A stretch of DNA of 64,000 nt from Anadara kagoshimensis (Eukaryota > Mollusca > Bivalvia > Arcoida > Arcidae), in contig CM037870.1 of NCBI GenBank assembly GCA_021292105.1, positions 19,995,424 to 20,059,423 of the forward strand, given 5' to 3'. The translations under genes were made by a program, and so were the position numbers. Positions 8,093 through 64,000 of the stretch are shown one piece after another. Position 1 is the stretch's first letter. Every line of letters starts with the position of its first letter. The notes under the pieces are model-generated. The model was not told where the DNA came from. It did not search any database and saw nothing but the letters and a program-made list of their open reading frames with translations.

Positions 8093-8410
8093 CCACTGCG
8101 GTAGTTCAGTTGGTAAGAGTGCTCGCTACGTAAGTGGGAGGTCGTGGGTTCGAACCTCACCGGGTCTGATATAAGACTTGAATGTGGGTAGTAATTGTTC
8201 TTTCGCCAAGCACTCGGCATTACGAAATGAATGTCACAGTTCTTTCGGATGGGAACTTAAAATAAACGAGGTCCTTAGTCACGGTGGGCTTGGCACGATA
8301 AAGAACCTTGCTGTAAATTGCAATCAGCGCAACGCACAGTCATACTTTCTGCACGTTTGCCCGTAGCTGGCGACGTCTCGATGTGTAAAATATTCTTGAC
8401 TGGGACGTGT
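8093..8410 (+). repeat. tRNA-derived SINE, near full length
   Basis: The tRNA-like head (8097-8170) has A box GTAGTTCAGTTGGTAAGAG and B box GGTTCGAACCTC. The body has CTTTCGCCAAGCACTCGGCA, TTAAAATAAACGAGGTCC, GGGCTTGGCACGATAAAGAA, GCGCAACGCACAG and GCTGGCGACGTCTCGATG. It ends TATTCTTGACTGGGACGT. The open frames across it are readings of the repeat. Confidence 0.85.
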
Positions 8411-8835: not shown

Positions 8836-9345
8836 TTAGCATACTCCGCATGTGTGTAAACTTAGCACCTACTTTATAATATGCCTTGAGGTTCAGTACT
8901 AGTATCAAGGGTCCAAATAAATAAATGTGTGTGCCTTATCTCGCCTTTAATGTTTTGATGTTTCTGTCTTGGTGAAGTAAAATTGTTTGTTGACAAGTAC
9001 AGGTTTCTTCAGCTATACTCCGCATGTGTGTAAACTTGTCACCTCTCTACAATGTCTGGAGTTTCAATACCAGGGGTCCAAATATGTGTGTTGTTTTCTC
9101 GACTGTATTGTTTGGATGTTTCTGTCTCGTTTTTGTTTAGGTTACATTAGTTGTTGACAAGTAGAGGTTTCTTCACCTATACTCCGCATGTGTGTAAACT
9201 TGTCACCTTCACTACAATGTCTGGAGTTTTAATATCAGTGCTCCAAATGCGTGTCTTATTTCGTCTGTATTGTTTGGGTATTTCTAACGCGTTCCCGGTT
9301 AGGTTACATTCGCTGTTGACAAGTACGTGCCTTTCAGCTATATAA
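8836..9345 (+). repeat. Three-copy tandem repeat, unit about 165-174 bp
   Basis: The landmark TACTCCGCATGTGTGTAAAC recurs at 8842, 9016 and 9180. Each unit continues through ACAATGTCTGGAGTTTCAAT-like, GGTCCAAAT, TGTATTGTTTGGATGTTTCT and GTTGACAAGTA. The third unit ends near 9340. Units differ by many substitutions, so the array is not recent. I see no coding capacity. Confidence 0.8.
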
Positions 9346-9545: not shown

Positions 9546-9690
9546 CAATCAAATACAAACATAAAGGTCCATGTTCAAACCACAATCAAAAGCAAAGCAA
9601 AAGAAAAAAAACAACTTTGAAATCAAATCAATAAATGGAAGTGAAGCCGGATGCTGCGGAAGTTGCCCACAACCGCAACGTGTAAGATCA
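9546..9690 (-). repeat. Repeat A fragment
   Basis: It begins with the reversed 3' end (AATCAAATACAAACATAAAG, CCATGTTCAAACCACAATC, AAAGCAAAGC) and continues to GGAAGTGAAGCCGGATGC and CGCAACGTG. A 10-base A run replaces part of the middle. Confidence 0.65.
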
Positions 9691-10920: not shown

Positions 10921-12423
10921 TAATAAAAAAGAACTCAAATTTCCTAATTTGTTGTCATCAGCTTAAAATAGACATAAAATTCATATTCTGTGTTTTTATA
11001 GTTTTGTTGACTCACCATAGCAAGCCAAATATTGCGTGCAAACAAACATTTCTACAACCTTCCATCGAAAGTAAAAATGCCTATTTATGTGATTATAAAC
11101 TTGTTTATGAGAAATATGATGAATAAAATTTGATAAAAATCCACAAGTTAATCGTGCATGGCGATGTATATTAAATTATATAATGGAAATTTACATTTTA
11201 TCAGCTGGTGATGAAGCCATGTGTGTTTTACTCTTTGTGTGCTCTGGGGTTAAAATGACAGCAATATGCCGTAAATTGTATTTGTATTAGCGTGTTGTTA
11301 GTGTCTGTTGTTATCAAGTGCATGCAATTCTGATTCATTGTTTTTATTGCCCTTTAAATGTATTTGAGGAGATATTTACCATATTCTAAAAATAATAGCA
11401 TTTAATAGAAATAGGTTGAAGTGGAATTAAACAAAGTCGGTTTTTGAAATGGTGGAGGAAAATCATAATTCCTGAATAATAAAAAGCGACCTGCCAATTT
11501 TTTCATATAATGATCTCTTGATTGGGATTCGAATCCAGAAGAGGCATTGCAATCCTCAAACTGGCGGTATAGAATCTAGTCAAAAATGCATACTTTAATT
11601 TGTATAGCAAACAATGGTAAATGCAACTAAGTTAAAAGCAAGGCATGGTAAACAAATATAAGTAAGACATTAAAACAGGATAATAAATTGTATAAAGGGC
11701 ACTGATTCAAGTAGTTGGTAAAAGTGCCCAAGTAGTTGGTATAAAAACTAACCAAAATTAAAGTAAAGTGATTTAATTTGTTGCTAAAAAAACTTGTACA
11801 TGTATTGCTATTGTAATTAAGAAAGCAAAAGCAAAATAATAATAATAATAATAGAGAAATGAAAAAAGAAATCAATTGATTACAATGACATAATTTTCGA
11901 GATATTGAAATAAATAATTTTAATGCATTGTTCATGATAACATTGCGTGAAGAGCAAATATAAGCAGAATATGCGTGTCCAATCTAAATCCGTTCGAACA
12001 AGTTTTTTTGTATTGTTTGGATGACCTGAACATGAGCCAATTATTATTGACCAATCAAAATCCTTAAAATAAGAGTTTTGTTTAAATATTTTGGATACAG
12101 TAGCTCTAACCAGTTCACTTATTTTACAACCAGGGTCCCTAAATACACATTAATAGAATGTCAGTACATATGAAATTTCTTAATTTATATTATAGAGAAG
12201 CAGTATTGTCCATTAAATGAATGTATTGGAACTGAAAACTATGTAATTCAATTCTGTCAAGTTAAGCTAGATTTTACTTCCTGGTTTTAGGTGAGCTGGG
12301 TTTTCCCAGAAGAGCAGTAAAACGGTTCAAAACAGTACAAATGTGTTACAAAGCTGACACAAATACAGGAAGTTTGGTAGTAGACAAGAAAAGACAACAC
12401 AAAACGTTCTTAAAAAGTCAAAA
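10921..12423. other. Non-coding, no gene supported
   Basis: The 102-codon minus-strand frame at 11627-11935 is F/L/N-rich low-complexity translation of AT-rich DNA. No repeat shared within the window was recognised. Confidence 0.4.
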
Positions 12424-16600: not shown

Positions 16601-17549
16601 TCTACAAAATCAAAATAAATGTTTTCACAGTATATTGTTAATGATTACTTAAATAGCCTGTTCATCTCGACAGACATATTATATATAATATGACCATCCA
16701 TATGCAAAAAGGGCCCCTAGGTAAAACATTTAGAATTTCACGATTTGTTTTATATTCTTGAACCTGAAGCACCAACACAAGTTTTTCAAAAAACATTGAT
16801 AAAGGTGTAGTTGACTGTTGTGGAGAAATTATCATAAAAAAAAAGAAAGTCTTGTTGTCATAACAGACTATATTTGTTTTCATTATTTGCTGTTTTCTGT
16901 ATTATGTTTGCATTGTTGTAAGGTTTCATTTTTCGCTTACGTAACGTCATATATATTTCGTTTTGTCAACCCACTGAACACTAAATACATGGTTTTGATT
17001 ATAAATTAAACTTTCTAATATACTAAGCTGTTATTTGGATAAATAATCTTTAAGCATTAAGCAATTCGACTGACACTAATTGGACTTGACTTGTCTATTT
17101 GGACTAGTCCATAACGGAATGTACTACTAATGGGCTTCAGTTAAATTGTCAGAGGCAAGATTGGTTTTAATGGTCATTGACCTTAAATTTGTGACAGTGT
17201 CAAAGAGATAGAAGCCAATAATCAAATTATCATGCAAATCCTTTTTATGATATATTTGTATGGGGTTATGTCAAGAAAATTTTTTAATTACTATGACATC
17301 ATAATACGTTGACGTGGTGATTTTGACGTCACGAATTCTGTTAAATATACTGTAAACATATTTATTTTAGCGTGTATTACTTTAAGTGCAAATTTGAAAT
17401 TGTTTAAATCCACATGGATTTGAATAAGCGTGATTTTCATGGAGCATCTCGTACTGAATTTGGCGGCGGATTTTAAGTATCTGTAATGATATACCGGTTA
17501 AACCGGTGTGAAATTTGTGTGTTATTTAAATTTGTATGTGCTTTTCACC

Positions 17550-17665
17550 ATCTTGAAAAACAATTTGGTGTCATAATTTCAATAATGGTCAAAAGACTAC
17601 TGATGAGGAATTGTATCCCAAAATGGCCGTCTAGAGGTATAATATGTAATTTTAACCGCAGTGCT
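17550..17665 (+). repeat. Degenerate hammerhead-repeat fragment
   Basis: ACTACTGATGAGGAATTGTA at 17597 carries the hammerhead CUGAUGAG box and stem II 5' strand. The partner box is CCAAAAT instead of CCGAAAC, so the invariant G is lost. GGCCGTCTAG and GGTATAATATG follow as in the other copies. It is an inactivated relic of the family best preserved at 63150-63610. Confidence 0.65.
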
Positions 17666-18493
17666 ATTTGGTCTTTTTGCCGTTCATACTAGTCCTGTTT
17701 TTTCAGTATTTTTGACAGAACTGATTTGTTTTGTTAAGCTATTAAGACTTGTTTTTTCTACTTGCTGAAAAGTAATGGTTGACCAAAGCATTTAAGCATA
17801 TTTTATTTAAAATTCATTGTTTCAATTTTTATGCGATATATTCAAATGCATATTTTATTTAAACTGAAACCATCATTTTTATAAATTTTTATGCGATACA
17901 TTCAAAATTATGTTCAATTGTCAATACGCAAAAACAGTACGTCATTCGATATACAATGGAAATAATTGTTCCACAAAAACGTATGGTTGTGTAACGTTGA
18001 ATGCTGAAAAGACATTAGTTTGCAGCTTTACGCTGTTACTAGCAATAAAGTAGCCCTTACGCTTTTGACCATGATTCGGAAATTAAAGTGATAAAAATAT
18101 ATATCTGTTGACGTTTATAAATTTCATATTTTTTATATTTTTGAGGGTATTTTTTTCTCTAAAAAAGTGTCCAGTCTGAATTTGATCTGGCCATCTGCAT
18201 AAACACGTGAATATTTTCCTATTAACTTCCCACACTGAACTACTTAATGTTTTTGCATCTTTACGTGAGCGGAATACATCATGAATTTATCATAATTTGT
18301 TTTTGATCGATGATTAATAAGGACTATATACTACTGATGTCTGAATGTAGAAATGTTATATAAACGCCATTCTAATTTTTTTTATAATTTTTTTTTCAAA
18401 AAGAGAATGATTTATCAATAATCATGATTTGTTATGTAATTTTTGCAAGTACTTTATTTCATAAGAATCGAACTTCTTAGTTCTAACTTATAT

Positions 18494-19269: not shown

Positions 19270-19560
19270 TTTGTAAGCTGGTGTATGTTTTTCCGAGGAT
19301 ATCACAAATTCAGTCGACAATAACCGTGTATTATTGTCAGAAATATACAATAATCTATGAAATGTAAAATTCTTCAAAAACTATGGTATATTCTCTCATG
19401 CAAAGTGTTTTCTTAGCTAGCTATATTTGGTAAAATATATTTTGTTCCGGTGGGTATCTTTTTAACATGGGTTTCGCAGTTTTGGTCCAAGAACTACTGA
19501 TGAGGAATTGTATTCCAAAACGATCTTATAATGCTGTAAATTTAAATTAAGTCTTGACTA
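19270..19560 (+). repeat. Hammerhead-repeat copy, ribozyme core mutated
   Basis: It begins with CCGAGGATATCACAAATTCA and contains TATTATTGTCAGAAATATAC, CAAAAACTATGGTATATTCT, CATGCAAAGTGTTTTCTTAG and TTTGGTCCAAGAACTACTGA. The CUGAUGA box is at 19497-19503. The second core box reads CCAAAAC instead of CCGAAAC, and the stem I partners no longer pair, so self-cleavage is not expected. About 290 bp correspond to one unit of the tandem at 63150-63610. Confidence 0.75.
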
Positions 19561-21640: not shown

Positions 21641-22182
21641 TGCATTTATTATATCCTCTGGGATGCTTAGTGCGCCAACAGAGGTTGTGATTATTATAAC
21701 TAAACCTGTTTAATTTTACAGCATTGGACTACCGTTATAATAATATTCCCTATCAGTAGTGCTCGGACTAAAACCGTGGATATCAAAATTTTTTAATTTG
21801 AATTTTTATCCTATTATGCTCATAGATCTTGTACCCGGAAACGGCAAATGCAATCTAAACACATGACGATACCTGCAGACTCTATTGGTCATAATTACTC
21901 ATTGTTGATTTATCATACCAGGAAGTGCAAGCGTGACACGCAATACACTTGATCATAAGAAAAATAAAAGACGAGATTTATCATAGATTATATTTATTAG
22001 ATAAAGGATGCGGGAAGTTGTCGTTGTGCAACTGATTGCGAAATAAAACTTTATGAACCTCACTGATTACCTAAATGACCTCCATTTTATATTTAGTATG
22101 TGATGATAAGTACATAGTGTTGTAGTTCTATTTTTATTTGCCACTAGTTGTTTGTCAAACTGACTGTACTGATTCTTCTAAA

Positions 22183-22370: not shown

Positions 22371-23594
22371 TGACTCTACTATACTTGCATTGTAAAAGGT
22401 GGGTTTCAGGATATATATTTTAATAAAGTTGTTTCAATTTTGCAGTGTTAGACGGTCGTTTCCGAATAAAATTTCTCATAGCTAATGTTCAAATCAGAAA
22501 TTGGAGAAAACTAAAAAAAAATTAAGATATGAAATTTTAAGACGGTAGACTTTACTTTATTTTTTATAAGGATTAGAGGTTCTTTATTTTCTGAACACCT
22601 AGCCTTGCGACCCTAGTGCTTTACTTCACTTTGCCAGTTCTCAAAATTTTACTAGGCTTTTGGATAAAGTAAAAGAGTAAACACCTCCTTCAATATTATG
22701 AAGCTGTCTGAACCATACCAGAAAATGCGACGAAATTAATAAATAATAGTAGCAAAATTTAATGTTTTAAAGACGACAACTGTATCCGTGAAATTCGTTC
22801 ATTATACTATGCATCTTCGTATAGTCACTATACAAAAAAGGAAAAGGACACCGTGCCCTCAATATACTTGAGGAAAAGAGAACACAAAATAATATTACGG
22901 CTAAAAAGTGACCATGGTGTGAAAATTAATTATAATTCACCTTCGCATGTTAAATTACCCAATAATTTACCTATACATAGTACATATATAGCAAGGGAAT
23001 TCACTCTCTTAAAAACCACAGACGTATTCAACTAAGACCAAATTTCAATGGATAAAACACAAATTCACAGAAAAATATATATTTTGAAATTATACCAAAA
23101 AAAAAATAAATTTAAACAAATTGCAGTTTTGTATTTTTGTTTGTCAAATTAATTAAAAACTAGTTGTATGCAATATCCATGGTAATGTCATAATCGGAAA
23201 AAATCTTCTCAACTGAAATGTCATTTTGTTGCCAGAAAGATGTTAATTATATTGTAAGAAGATCCGACTTATCCACAAAAGCACGATATCTTAAACATAT
23301 ATAGAACATTGACCTAAACAAACATCGTAATAAAGTGAATTAGGCCGTGCTTATTTTGTCTGTTTTTGTCACTTTGGTGCTATTGTATTTGTGTGTTGGG
23401 GTGTTAAACCCTTGTATATAAAATCAAACAAAACATATGTATCCGTTTACATTTTTGCTATCAAGACATTTATGTCTGATTATTTAGGGAAAAATACAAT
23501 TTCTGAAACGTGTTTAATGCATCAAATAAATAATTAATAACGAAACCGTTATTGTAATATTTTCAATATAATAATTAATTGGTTTTATTTTAAT

Positions 23595-48759: not shown

Positions 48760-49075
48760 GTTTTCGGTTAGATATAAATATCACAATCTCAGTAGGAAAT
48801 AATTGTGTATTACTGTCATAAATTTATTATTGTGTTAATTTTCTGCTTGTGAAAATTTGAAATTCCTCAATAACTAGGGTATACTCCCTTAAGAAAGTAT
48901 TTCCTTAGCTCAATTTGGTAAAATATTTTTTGGTCCTTTAGGTATTTTTGCAAGATCTTGAAAACTATTTTAGTTTTATAATTTTGGTTCAAGCACTACT
49001 TATGAGGAATTATATTCAGACGACCATCTTGTGCTGTAAAATTGAAACTGGTATAATATGTAACAATATTATTTT
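48760..49075 (+). repeat. Hammerhead-repeat copy, ribozyme core mutated
   Basis: It matches the 304-bp unit of 63150-63610: AATTGTGTATTACTGTCATA, GAAATTCCTCAATAACTAGG, GTATACTCCCTTAAGAAAGT, TTTTTTGGTCCTTTAGGTAT and TTTGGTTCAAGCACTAC. Stem I mostly pairs (AGCACTA with TTGTGCT), but the core boxes read CTTATGA (48999-49005) and AGACG in place of CTGATGA and GAAAC, so activity is not expected. Confidence 0.75.
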
Positions 49076-52350: not shown

Positions 52351-52691
52351 CTTGTTTTTTGCATTTGGTCTATAAAATTTTACATGGTCATGAATGACAT
52401 GTTTATTTAATTTTTAAACTTTAGTAATAAATTGTACACATACTATTTAGACCGAAAGACTATAAATTAGATGCCCATTTATGATATCTATCACCATCCA
52501 TAATTTTTTTATTGGGACTTTCCAGCAGCCGCATGCATTTTTATAGTATGTTGCAAAATCGCAGAGTTTATTATTTTCCATTGCAATAGGCTTTATAAGC
52601 TTGTCAAATTAATGCAAACTTCAAATAAAATTGAACAGTTGTATACGAAAGCTTGTTAGTGCCATTTTGTAAAAAAGAAAAAAAAATATTA

Positions 52692-53363
52692 AGTCGTTTA
52701 AACAAGATACTAAGTCGTTTAAACAAGATACTAAGTCGTTTAAACGAGATACTAACTCGTTTGAACAAGATAATAACTCGTTTAAACGAGATGATTAAGT
52801 CGTTTAAACGAGATACTAACTCGTTTAAACAAGATACTAACTCGTTTAAACAAGATAATTAAGTCGTTTAAACGAGATACTAAGTCGTTTAAACAAGATA
52901 ATTAAGTCGTTTAAACGAGATACTAAGTCGTTTAAACGAGATAATTAAGTCGTTTAAACGAGATACTAACTCGTTTAAACAAGATACTAACTTGTTTAAA
53001 CGAGATACTAAGTCGTTTAAACGAGATAATTAAGTCGTTTAAACGAGATACTAACTCGTTTAAACAAGATACTAACTTGTTTAAACGAGATACTAAGTCG
53101 TTTAAACGAGATAATTAAGTCGTTTAAACGAGATACTAACTCGTTTAAACAAGATACTAAGTCGTTTAAACGAGATAATTAAGTCGTTTAAACAAGATAC
53201 TAAGTCGTTTAAACGAGATAATTAAGTCGTTTAAACGAGATACTAAGTCGTTTAAACGAGATAATTAAGTCGTTTAAACAAGATACTAAGTCGTTTAAAC
53301 GAGATAATTAAGTCGTTTAAACGAGATACTAACTCGTTTACACAAGATACTAACTCGTTTAAA
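52692..53363 (+). repeat. Left subrepeat array, 32 units of 21-22 bp
   Basis: Units centre on TCGTTTAAACGA or TCGTTTAAACAA, joined by AGATACTAA (21-bp period) or AGATAATTAA (22-bp period). The self-complementary GTTTAAAC core is present in nearly every unit; units 4, 31 and 32 deviate. The 69-codon frame over the start of the array is simply a translation of the repeat. Confidence 0.95.
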
Positions 53364-55942: not shown

Positions 55943-56265
55943 ATTCAATCAATCAATCAATCAATCGTGAACAAATAAAAACCGCATGTTGTTTGTTAAT
56001 AAAGTCATGTTGCACTATGACTAGTTCAGCTAAGGAACAGTTGAGAAATTTCGTGAATAATTTTATTTGGTAATGTCAAGAAGACTATTTGTCTGGAGCC
56101 CCACTTTTTGGACTTCATTTGGCGTCGAAATTGTCAACGTCTACTGAAGTCCGGACTTCGTTAGGAATTGCTACATGCCCGTTCTTTTTCCTTGACCGTG
56201 TATGTATGGAATGTACGGAATGTATGGTGGCTAATGAAATTATCTCGTTATAAAATCATAATGTA

Positions 56266-56632
56266 TTATCTTGTTTAAACGACTTAATTATCTTGTTTAA
56301 ACGACTTAGTATCTTGTTTAAACGACTTAATTATCTCGTTTAAACGAGTTAGTATCTTGTTTAAACGACTTAGTATCTTGTTTAAACGACTTAGTATCTT
56401 GTTTAAACGACTTAATTATCTTGTTTAAACGACTTAGTATCTCGTTTAAACGACTTAATTATCTCGTTTAAACGAGTTAGTATCTTGTTTAAACGATTTA
56501 GTATCTCGTTTAAACGACTTAATTATCTTGTTTAAACGACTTAGTATCTCGTTTAAACGACTTAATTATCTCGTTTAAACGACTTAGTATCTTGTTTAAA
56601 CGACTTAGTATCTTGTTTAAACGACTTAATAT
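56266..56632 (-). repeat. Right subrepeat array, about 17 units
   Basis: The reverse complement of the left array: TTATCTTGTTTAAACGACTT and AGTATCTCGTTTAAACGACT units of 21-22 bp, with one further degenerate unit (TATCTCGTTATAAAATC) at the inner edge. The outermost units and flank are identical to the outer end of the left array. Confidence 0.95.
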
Positions 56633-56674: not shown

Positions 56675-59600
56675 GTTTTATCATAATCGACAGTGCGTTC
56701 CTTGAGTAAATTATCTGTAGTGGGTCCAGGTCACGTGACTATACGATGTAATCGACCGGGAAACGCAGGGAAACAACCACCTTTTCAAATCAAGAAAAAA
56801 TTTAATAATCAATTGTATTTTAATAAAATACTTGTATAAATTAACATTTCACGTTGGAAATCACACGTATGTATTAAGTTAAAGTTAAAAGTAGTTGTAT
56901 CCAGCATCTGAAATCTTTTTTTTTTTTTTTTTACTTTGCGGTCTAAATCTTGTCCGTTTACGAAGGGTCGCGGTTTTTGATTGGATATCCGGAGCTGGTT
57001 TTGGAATACTTTTTCTAGATTGACAAATATAAATAAAGCTTACATCCTTGTCTAACAACATGAACAAGTAGCGTTTGTTACATTCGCATTACGATGACTT
57101 TCACAGTGTTTGCACTGGTCTCGCATGTCCCATGTTGGAATGATGCTCCTATATTAAAGGACATATTATTTTTTCAACAGTTAGTGTTTGATATTTTGAG
57201 ACATTTATTACTTTTAAACACTGACCATACATGTAGTTTTTATTTTGAATAAAAACAACTTTTTCAAAAATAGTTGTGCAGAACTTTGCTCAAGCCATTA
57301 ATTTTAGGTTAGGCGTGTTGATGACCAGCGAGTATTTAAGTTAGTCGATGGGAATTTCTAATTGAAAATGGTCTGCTTCTGAGATTGTAAAACCCCTTTG
57401 AATCAACTATTTGCTTCATCGTTTAAAGTATTGTCTAAGGTGGAATTAGTTAAATAAATTTTGTTTCTTGAACTTTGTTCTATTCTTCTCATTGCAACAT
57501 CTTGAAAATATTCGGATGTCCACAATTTAAGTCCAAGCGCTATTGATGGGGAATTTAACTTTGAAACGACAGTCATGTGCTGCAAAAATTAAACGGGTTT
57601 AGTAACAAACAAAGAGTTATTCAGCTGCTTAGCTTTAGAGTAGGGTTGTCAGCGAGTATTGGAGTCAATGGAAAATTCAAATGACGATTGTAACACGTTA
57701 AAAATTACAAATTTAACATTGCGTTTCTATTTTAAACATTTTTTCCCACAAAATTTTCCCCTTGTAATATTTTTTGTCATTTTAACTTCGAATATCGATC
57801 TGTTTTTACTTTCTTCTTTTCAATGTTTATTTCGTTGTTATGAAAGTTGAAAATTAGGTCATATGTTTTTCTGACATGTTATCACTAATTATTTTTGACA
57901 TTTTCTAGCTAGCCATCAGTTTTGGTTAGTATTTTCCACATAGTTGCTTCTGAATAAAGACAACTATCGGATGCTATTGCTGATTTTCCTGTTAGGAAAT
58001 CTGTGGGAATCGCATTTCTTGGAAATGTGGTTAATACTATTCAAGTGCGTAAAAGACAAAGTCCCAATATCATAAAAACATGGTATCATAACTCTTATTA
58101 CATACGAACTGTGTATTGTTCGCATTTATTTCAAACAACGTTCATTTAACTGGCTATATTGAAGCGTAATACTAAAATTTGTAATTTTCAATTTTTAAAA
58201 AATTCAGTAAATGACAGAATAAAACAAAAATAAATTTGAATTCATTTTATTCGGATCCTGTAAGGTGACGTGTAAAAAAATTATTTTGAAATAGTTATTT
58301 CGTAATTTCGAGCTACCACTATTTTGAAAATACGAAAGCACTACGTACGAAACACTTTCGAAATAACTTTTAAAAGTTTTTAACACATTGAATCTTCAAA
58401 AGGACTGTTAAAGTATTAAAATTTTCTTAAAGGTATTTCTATATAAAAAGTGCTTAAACTAATTCTTAAAAATTTTAAATGGGTCTTAGAAATTTCCCTA
58501 GATACAATTTTTTTCAGTCATACTATTACATTTTAAGCAAAATTTAACTAGTAGGTCAAGCACTGTTGAAATAACATAAATAACGCCCATCCGGTATGCA
58601 GATGAGGTGAAAAATGGTAAAAGTTGCAAAGGTGTGCTGATCATATCAAATTTAAGCCTTTATCGTATAAATTTTATATAGTGCATTTATGGAGTTTCCA
58701 GATTATGCACCTGACAACTTTTTTTACCGCGGATTGTTTTAAACAACAAAATCACGACAATTGGGCTTTTGCGTTTCACCTGGAAGGTTGTCAGAATCAC
58801 TTCTGTATTCTACACGCATAGAATGCCCTTTAAAATGGGCAGAAATCTATTTAGAAAAGGTTTAGGTTAAATGTAAAATTATATACGATTAAACTTCTTT
58901 ATTTCCCATTGTGTTTAACTCTAAATAATGACTTAATTATACTTTATAGACATTTGCAGTTTGAACAAAAAGATTTAATGAAATGGCACAGGGAGTGCTT
59001 GATGTCACATTAAAACTCTTTTCTCTTCCGACTTAAGCTTAAAAAAAATTCTTGATACAAAACGAAATTGTTAAAAAATGACCTAAATACTGAAACTAAA
59101 TTTGTTAGACATTATGAAGTTATTACTCTTTTTCTCTTGAGTAATGAAAACATTAGCTGTTGTAACCCTAGGTAATAAAAGTCAAAAAAGAAAAAAAACG
59201 AGTAACAAAGACGGAACAGACATTTAAATGTCATGATAATCGATAAATGGTAAAAAAAATGTACATAAATGAAACTACACAAAAAAAGTTAAAGGAAAGA
59301 AAAACAGAAAATAAATGGAAACTTTTTTTATTTCCACAAAGAAAATATCTCACTGTAGATGCCAAGTAGCGTACAATTAATAATTTTTAAAAAGCATTAT
59401 CTTCAACAAAAAAGAGAAGTGACATTTTTTTTCAACATAGAAATGTTGCGTAAAGATTAATATTGCGTGACGTTGAGCTAGCTATCTAGCGACTTGTATT
59501 ATAAAGTACAATGGTTTAAGATTATGAATTACGTTTTTGACCTATAGCATTTTTATAACGGCATTTGTATCGAATTGTGTTTTGGTAGTACTCTTTTGAA

Positions 59601-62815: not shown

Positions 62816-63218
62816 TTTCAAAAGAAGCTTTGAGATGTGTTTAAATTACATTAGAAAAAAGAATAATAGTAAAGTAAACCTTATCTATAGGATGAAGGTG
62901 ACCTTATATCACACCAATGAAACAATTCCCGTACATTTCAGGTGAAATCTAAGTGTAAATAATAAACCTTTGAAACCATATGCTTTTCAGATACCATTTT
63001 CAATACATGAAAAGCCTTTTTTAAATTTTGCATTTAAAATTACAAAATACGAACTTTAATAATAACTTTGACCGATTTGATATTTCTTATTTTACCCTCT
63101 TTCCTTTTATTTACTTTTACATATGTTAATGAAATAATGACAAAAACTTAAAGTTAAATATATTTTGGTCCTTTGGGTAAGTTTTTCAAAATCTTTTTGG
63201 TTTCATAATTTTGGTCCA

Positions 63219-63264
63219 AGCACTACTGATGAGGAATTGTATTCCGAAACGGCCGTCTAGTGCT
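63219..63264 (+). ncRNA. Hammerhead ribozyme 1, intact core
   Basis: Stem I is AGCACTA (63219-63225) with TAGTGCT (63258-63264), seven pairs. Core box CTGATGA is at 63226-63232. Stem II is GGAAT/ATTCC with a TGT loop. The second box GAAA is at 63246-63249. Stem III is the very short ACG/CGT with a GC loop, and the cleavage triplet GTC ends at 63257. All invariant residues are present. ACGGCCGT at stem III is self-complementary, which would let two molecules pair and form a dimeric ribozyme, as proposed for minimal stem III hammerheads. Confidence 0.85.
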
Positions 63265-63522
63265 GTAAAAATTAAAACTGGTATATGTAATTTAAACCCC
63301 CGAGCCGATATCTCTGCTGGTGGCTGGTGCCCCGAGGATATCACTAACTCAGTAGGCAATAATTTGGTATTATTGTCAGAAATATAATATAATTGTCTAA
63401 ATTTCCTGCAAGTAAAAATTTGAAATTTCTCAAAAACTAAGGTATACTCCCTCATGCAAAGTATTTCCTTGGGTAAGTTTTCAACATCTTCAAAATAATT
63501 TTGGTTTCATAATTTTGGTCCA

Positions 63523-63568
63523 AGCACTACCGATGAGGAATTTTATTCCGAAACGGCCGTCTAGTGCT
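63523..63568 (+). ncRNA. Hammerhead ribozyme 2, one core change
   Basis: Same layout as the first: AGCACTA/TAGTGCT stem I, GAAA box at 63550-63553, ACGGCCGT stem III and GTC cleavage triplet ending at 63561. The first box reads CCGATGA instead of CTGATGA, changing a conserved uridine, and the stem II loop has TTT for TGT. Activity is probably reduced. Confidence 0.75.
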
Positions 63569-63954
63569 GTAAAAATTAAAACTGGTATAATATGCAATAT
63601 TAACTCTTAAGAACAACTATCAGAACGGGTTAAAAAAATGATTGAGATTCAAGAGTGTCCTGATTTGAGGACATTTAAGGAGTGGCACATAAGATAAGCA
63701 AACCTGCATATACATTTAAGCAATTGCTTTTTAAAAAATAGAAAAAACCAATGAGGAGACAGTTTAGAAATTTGCAGGCCCACTACACAAAAGTGAACAA
63801 GAGAGGAATTAGGAACGGTCATACTAGGTCATAGACAGTCAGTTTTACATGAGTGCACAAGCACTGAAGCATAAAATATTATGAAGGTACATCGTCATAT
63901 ACAAAACATTACCCTACAATGACAAATTTACATGACACATTATTATTAATGTAT

Positions 63955-64000
63955 CTTTGCATGTGGATATTTCCCAGAGGATATCACAAACTTAGAATCC
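63955..64000 (+). repeat. Start of another hammerhead-repeat unit, cut by the window end
   Basis: TTTGCATGTGGATATTTCCC, AGAGGATATCACAAACTTAG resembles the CCGAGGATATCACAAATTCA start of the unit at 19290 and 63333. The rest lies outside the window. Confidence 0.55.

Follow-up and report, generated by a model that had tools for sequence, protein, structure and literature searches.

A hammerhead retrozyme of Anadara kagoshimensis with scattered 5′ ends and a 3′ end fixed about 38 nt beyond the predicted ribozyme cut

Copies of a hammerhead retrozyme in the bivalve Anadara kagoshimensis end at one fixed point about 38 nt 3′ of the predicted ribozyme cut and begin at points scattered around the unit, a manner of ending that is new here. 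We conclude that reverse transcription, begun at that one internal point, very probably gives rise to the copies. Penelope-like elements of the same genome have comparable ends relative to their own hammerhead-like motifs, and insertion of the retrozyme by way of an RNA circle and a Penelope-like helper is the best explanation, which we hold with about even confidence, the circle, the helper and any present activity all being putative. Passages of a 2020 review (PMC7761336) describe the metazoan repeats as showing no conserved motif that points to a helper, and the enzyme that spreads them was at that time an open question. The fixed end, about 38 nt beyond the cut, and the comparable Penelope-like ends are a clue to it, and the question becomes testable in vitro and in other genomes.

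The insertion in the window and its two hammerheads

The window, by which we mean the whole analysed stretch of 64,000 nt (C14:19995424-20059423 in an assembly of 1.115 Gb and 36 contigs), carries one insertion with two hammerheads as well as older copies and fragments of the same family. Unit positions are numbered from the first base 3′ of the predicted cut.

63153..63604, + strand: 5′-truncated retrozyme insertion of about 1.3 units, running from unit position 228 to about 38 when mapped by BLAST on the 339-nt unit
63219..63264, + strand: hammerhead copy 1, from sequence reading and Rfam; predicted cut after 63257
63523..63568, + strand: hammerhead copy 2, from sequence reading, Rfam and pattern search; predicted cut after 63561
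63258..63561, + strand: 304-nt unit between the predicted cuts, from pairwise alignment to the 339-nt reference unit (from locus L006)
63300..63352, + strand: predicted stem-loop, unit about 46-98, coordinates converted from unit positions
63562..63599, + strand: 3′ tail of about 38 nt, from the copy 2 cut to the insertion end, from end mapping and tail counts
48778..49063, + strand: older copy of 83% identity with a broken hammerhead core, its end at unit position 36
19277..19540, + strand: decayed copy, 74% identical, from mapping to the unit
17542..17642, + strand: decayed fragment, 78% identical, from mapping to the unit
57492..57593, + strand: decayed fragment, 75% identical, from mapping to the unit
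21709..21794, − strand: decayed fragment, 75% identical, from mapping to the unit
22432..22479, − strand: decayed fragment, 79% identical, from mapping to the unit
63952..64000, + strand: beginning of another decayed copy, 68% identical, which extends about 240 bp beyond the window end (L001 2263-2548)

Read from the window sequence, copy 1 is a type I hammerhead with an intact core: a 7-bp stem I (AGCACUA/UAGUGCU) is followed by CUGAUGA, a 5-bp stem II (GGAAU/AUUCC) with a UGU loop is followed by GAAA, and a stem III block, ACGGCCGU, which consists of 2 bp and a palindromic GGCC tetraloop, is followed by GUC, 3′ of which the cut is predicted. The first-pass annotation had credited this copy with the same core, the same stem lengths, a GUC triplet and a minimal, self-complementary stem III, and all of these hold. 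Its second copy with one core substitution is likewise found, CUGAUGA being changed at its second base to CCGAUGA, in addition to one loop change, and the distance of 304 bp that it had given between the copies is borne out by a 101-nt repeat that is 96% identical.

Hammerhead_1 (RF00163) is the best Rfam family for copy 1, although the score in a search of 601 nt, 28.1 bits (E 9e-5), lies below the gathering score of 34; copy 2 reached 14.5 bits (E 2.8), and a search of the whole window at the gathering score reported no match of any kind. The first-pass annotation had named the covariance-model threshold as a check on copy 1, which the copy formally fails. This is, however, the wrong yardstick for copy 1, because a 35-nt hammerhead pattern with up to two mismatches occurs at 9,585 places in the genome (4,855 plus 4,730), compared to 0 for the reversed control. 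A chance hammerhead-like sequence, which is what a score of 28.1 bits under a gathering score of 34 could point to, is refuted by this copy number, and we give it practically no credence. As copy 1 falls below the gathering score, other copies of the same sequence should escape standard annotation.

A looser 25-nt core pattern, again with up to two mismatches, matched 6 times in the window against 3.24 expected, and since 10 of 100 shuffles also reach 6, the window alone does not rise above chance. Fold energy gives no support for the hammerhead either, as the hammerhead folded by itself shows no exceptional stability (z −1.0, with equal stability in 32 of 200 shuffles). The exact 25-nt hammerhead pattern was found 0 times in viral contigs and 0 times in prokaryotic contigs, and variation within the hammerhead is too low for a covariation test. 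Cleavage as a dimer, which the first-pass annotation had suggested, is possible for this predicted ribozyme on the ground of its weak palindromic stem III and of the description, in passages of PMC7229834, of axolotl hammerheads with a weak stem III and dimeric action. The same passages state that most invertebrate hammerheads cleave efficiently without dimer formation.

The locus maps as a single 5′-truncated insertion and not as a tandem of 304-nt family units. Its mapping is 452 nt long, the true 3′ end probably being at about 63598-63600 and the final matching bases being due to chance. By our reading, two hammerheads are present because synthesis went beyond one unit. What the first-pass annotation had said of the kind of element, a retrozyme, stands, as the family is multi-copy, partly tandem, non-coding, low in GC and of type I, and what gives way is its unit and its boundary. 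The 304-nt segment that it had proposed as the unit shows two gaps, of 33 nt and 3 nt, and one extra base in a pairwise alignment with the 339-nt unit, and a family unit of 304 nt is rejected, the units elsewhere being about 339 nt; the boundary that it had placed at the cut lies, in genomic DNA, about 38 nt further 3′.

The window contains other repeats. A 21-bp repeat, ATACTAAGTCGTTTAAACGAG, forms two arrays (52679-53363 and 56265-56632) that have opposite orientations, flank about 3 kb and look like the ends of another element, and a 162-bp tandem repeat (2.1 copies, 84% matching) occupies 8987-9326.

A dispersed family with one 3′ end

Units of the C1 array are 338-339 nt apart, and the array at C3:9334936-9339030 has at least 13 junctions at a spacing of about 339 bp. 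The unit has a GC content of 34%, where retrozymes lie below 45-50%, and is devoid of protein-coding capacity, as no stop-free stretch in three joined units exceeds 83 codons, a length reached on the opposite strand. Its length falls within the 150-450 bp of retrozyme repeats, and it occurs in dimers to multimers, with most tails lacking a following unit. The copies are dispersed, with 15 contigs represented among the matches listed (40 places). Classed by these sequence features, by the type I hammerhead with its intact core in copy 1 (scoring below gathering in Rfam) and by its copy number, the family is a very abundant, newly found member of the metazoan (non-LTR) retrozyme kind. Target-site duplications of retrozymes exceed 4 bp when present. 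Here, one perfect case of 28 bp was found (L037), and the mean over 44 copies is 5.5 nt as compared to 4.93 nt in shuffled controls (s.d. 0.16), with L037 making up much of the excess; apart from it, duplications are close to random.

We examined the ends of the copies in a set of 60 loci, which overlap removal reduced to 46 and which gave 68 mapped stretches, 51 of which were counted (at least 90 nt long and at least 85% identical). All 46 loci were found via the ribozyme region, and very short copies without the ribozyme fall outside the set. The 3′ ends of 44 of the 51 copies lie at unit positions 36-43, and those of 47 at 28-43, the remaining four copies ending at 75, 80, 199 and 325; this distribution departs from a uniform one with a Kolmogorov–Smirnov (KS) p of 5e-35. 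Ends at 33-42 are also found in 8 of the 17 stretches that were left out, the other 9 ending elsewhere. The 5′ ends span positions 55-332 and are compatible with a uniform distribution (KS p 0.15, 45 copies). The scatter of the 5′ ends led us to reject an element in which both ends are fixed.

Genome-wide pattern counts, which are independent of the 46 loci, agree with a fixed end. With up to two mismatches allowed throughout, the tail pattern occurs at 17,953 places (5 for the reversed control), and only 2,026 of these (11%) continue with 10 nt of the next unit, whereas a control pattern upstream of the ribozyme occurs at 11,875 places and continues for a further 10 nt at 8,294 of them (70%). 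The counts drop with distance 5′ of the fixed end, from 17,953 in the tail to 11,875 before the ribozyme and 2,768 at about 51-76, nearly one unit upstream of the end, a comparison that confounds truncation with the mutation rates of the patterns. The tail ends in neither poly(A) nor a simple repeat. Sixteen of the 47 fixed-end copies are longer than one unit, and in the arrays that were read the units continue through position 38 with no break; synthesis thus seems to begin inside the template.

The predicted stem-loop at unit 46-98 lies directly 3′ of the putative reverse-transcription start; it is conserved, and too invariant for a covariation test. Two loci, L016 and L018, end at +75 and +80, within this predicted stem-loop and 37-42 nt beyond the main end, and may hint at a counterpart of the optional tail of 30-40 nt of Penelope-like elements.

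The ribozyme differs at 29 of 3,969 bases and the rest of the unit at 468 of 12,567 in raw counts, and at 13 of 1,978 versus 31 of 2,431 (p 0.047) when loci L001-L030 are compared over the searched region alone. We make no use of this contrast, because the loci were chosen by similarity in the ribozyme region and L091-L093 came from exact ribozyme matches.

Penelope-like families of A. kagoshimensis and their ends

Minimal hammerheads have reportedly been described in Penelope-like elements by Cervera in 2014 and by Lunse in 2017. In the A. kagoshimensis genome at least 50 matches to GIY-YIG were found, 150 of 248 candidates having been scored. RVT_1 and GIY-YIG share one open frame in L074, L079 and L067, which represent three families, the RVT_1 match of L074 lying below the curated cut-off. 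In members of each family a hammerhead-like motif lies downstream of the open reading frame (ORF): that of family 1, CTGAAGA..AAAGCGCTA with a 9-bp stem I, is present in L064 and others and absent from L074 itself by exact pattern; family 2 (L079 and others) has the core of family 1 with a 6-bp stem I, and family 3 (L066, L067, L068) has CTGATGA..GAAACATGTC. These hammerheads were found by motif and by eye, those of families 1 and 2 having first been spotted by eye and later listed by pattern, and their activity and cut sites are assumed. Hammerhead scans of 30 GIY-YIG loci found a retrozyme copy in L065 and a Penelope motif in each of L066 and L068, and an Rfam search of five Penelope loci at E ≤ 1 gave no hammerhead and 17 microRNA, snoRNA and scaRNA matches, all below gathering.

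Measured from the assumed cut, elements of the three families end about 39-71 nt past it overall, as compared to +38 in the retrozyme. In family 1, L064, L070 and L076 diverge at about +39 to +44, and L086 and L090 have a further 30 nt in common beyond this shorter end; all 40 of 40 other matches to a family 1 query stop at +42 to +57, a range blurred by (TA)n and one that includes L090, which merely differs from the query at that point. In family 2, L081, L082 and L088 enter (TA)n at +40 to +54, and three loci, L079, L080 and L087, continue in common sequence beyond this shorter end. The family 3 end lies at about +64 to +71: of the 38 matches starting at query base 1, the query itself excluded, 25 end at query base 243 and all 38 within 234-253. 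The Penelope ends are thus less uniform than the retrozyme end. The extensions of L086/L090 and of L079/L080/L087 resemble, by analogy, the optional tail described for the Penelope-like class; for the Anolis element PAc, passages of PMC11167929 report internal initiation at two adjacent sites with an optional tail of 30-40 bp between them, the start being located in a stem-loop.

The retrozyme has no ORF of the size that would hold a reverse transcriptase and a GIY-YIG nuclease, and it ends a short distance, about +38, past its predicted hammerhead cut. It is therefore Penelope-like in its 3′-end behaviour and not a Penelope-like element. When the retrozyme was compared with the 30 GIY-YIG loci, no clear sequence match lay at the Penelope tails; the comparison returned retrozyme copies in L065 and L079 and one chance match in L084.

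Several further observations concern these elements. At 2198-2224 of L076, about 290 nt beyond a Penelope-like hammerhead motif, a stretch matches 29 nt of the retrozyme that cover the ribozyme cut region; it is probably a short retrozyme fragment. L070, L081, L082 and L088, from two of the families, end in long (TA)n tracts, which suggests such microsatellites as targets. Family 3 (L066, L067, L068) frequently occurs as inverted pairs that face outward and whose repeats are separated by about 1.95 kb, as at C3:3385568-3392656 and C4:16808610-16813322, and one such pair (C14:20101461 and 20104231) lies about 42 kb beyond the window end.

Template, helper and relation to known systems

As the copies end about 38 nt past the cut and not at the cut, the template seems to be continuous across it, being either a ligated circle or an uncleaved multimer. 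A linear cleaved unit would yield copies that end at the cut, so linear cleaved monomers are apparently not the template.

We propose the following cycle. Multi-unit transcripts would be cut by the hammerhead, as its intact core suggests, and the unit RNA would be closed to a circle, as mussel retrozymes are reported to do. A Penelope-like reverse transcriptase with a GIY-YIG nuclease would then begin cDNA synthesis at a nicked target, from a single point within the template, about 38 nt beyond the cut junction, and synthesis would travel a variable distance around the circle before stopping at random. Of this cycle, the genome itself displays the fixed 3′ end, the scattered 5′ ends, the run-through beyond one unit, variant sharing within arrays overall and the comparable Penelope-like ends. 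A circular template together with a Penelope-like helper is our best reading and not a demonstration, with a probability that we place at even or slightly lower. Uncleaved multimers would fit the 3′ end equally well, the tails of the two kinds of element differ, and the Penelope ends appear less uniform. More broadly, and with somewhat less than even confidence, animal retrozymes may be parasites of Penelope-like elements: the two would have in common a 3′ architecture of a hammerhead and a start about 40 nt past its cut, and the helper's target-primed rolling-circle reverse transcription of a ribozyme-made circle would produce arrays in one step.

Variant sharing bears on the choice of template. 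Rare variants, gaps counted, are common to units within arrays in 172 of 913 cells (18.8%), compared to 888 of 46,654 (1.9%) between loci, with a maximum of 4.0% over 500 re-pairings. The measure used 55 elements, namely the 51 counted copies and four extra arrays, L091-L094, of which L091-L093 came from exact-match lists. Sharing is uneven (40 of 73 in L003, 0 of 15 in L018, 0 of 39 between the window's own two copies), and full units of L092 differ from one another at 14 to 18 positions per about 337 nt. Within-array sharing fits one circle copied several times; local duplication or conversion could also give it.

The same retrozyme and class of helper might instead use an uncleaved multi-unit transcript, the hammerhead being unnecessary for insertion. 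Internal initiation alone would explain the fixed 3′ end, hammerhead mutants of the Anolis element are described in passages of PMC11167929 as still inserting in vitro, and the divergence of the L092 units and the lack of shared rare variants in the window's two copies point the same way. Over all arrays, however, sharing is about ten times higher within an array than between loci, as repeated copying of one circle would give, and we regard an uncleaved template as unlikely, though worth serious attention.

A SINE-like element moved by a tail-recognising LINE, with the hammerhead as a passenger, is quite unlikely. A fixed 3′ end with 5′ truncation is the pattern of LINEs and SINEs, and the one 28-bp target-site duplication would suit such an element. 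Against it, the 2,026 places that run seamlessly past the end point indicate that the start seems internal to the template, and poly(A) and simple repeats are absent from the end of the tail. To our knowledge, initiation inside the template is not usual for LINEs. An internal start is, by contrast, reported for a Penelope-like reverse transcriptase in passages of PMC11167929. Ordinary satellite DNA evolving by unequal crossing over, with the hammerhead as a relic, would account for long arrays such as that on C3, and is very improbable and rejected in its simple form, given dispersed, truncated copies with one fixed 3′ end and a next unit after only 11% of tails.

Among the open-licence papers listed in literature searches, no title or abstract opening mentions a fixed insertion end for animal retrozymes. 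The closest known kind, likened by description and not by sequence, is that of the metazoan non-LTR retrozymes and especially those of the mussel Mytilus galloprovincialis, for which passages of PMC7229834 report about 5,000 hammerheads, repeats of about 350-390 bp and circles in tissue, and which resemble the present family in their type I ribozyme, non-coding units of similar length, arrays, low GC content, thousands of copies and a genome that contains Penelope-like elements. The same source notes that mussel hammerheads are without most nucleotides of the tertiary contacts between loops 1 and 2, and regards Penelope-like elements as a strong candidate helper for animal retrozymes (PMC7229834; Cervera and de la Pena 2020). 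What sets the present family apart from the mussel account as given in those passages is a 3′ end that is fixed about 38 nt beyond the cut, together with 5′ ends that scatter.

Penelope-like elements such as PAc (passages of PMC11167929) are similar in that reverse transcription starts closely after the hammerhead and copies are in tandem. In PAc, however, the cut is at 26 nt of the ORF and the start at 111-118 nt, which by subtraction places the start about 85-92 nt past the cut, as compared to about 38 nt in the retrozyme, and the retrozyme differs from Penelope-like elements in having no protein, a 5-bp stem II and a different tail sequence. The repeats of newt and axolotl (330-350 bp), a vertebrate family compared by the description in PMC7229834 only, likewise have a weak stem III with a tetraloop and a similar unit length. 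Finally, the LTR retrozymes of plants, as portrayed in passages of PMC7229834 and PMC7761336, are also non-autonomous and hammerhead-bearing and have a circular RNA intermediate, which is reported there, but they differ in their type III hammerheads, LTRs, primer-binding site and 4-bp duplications.
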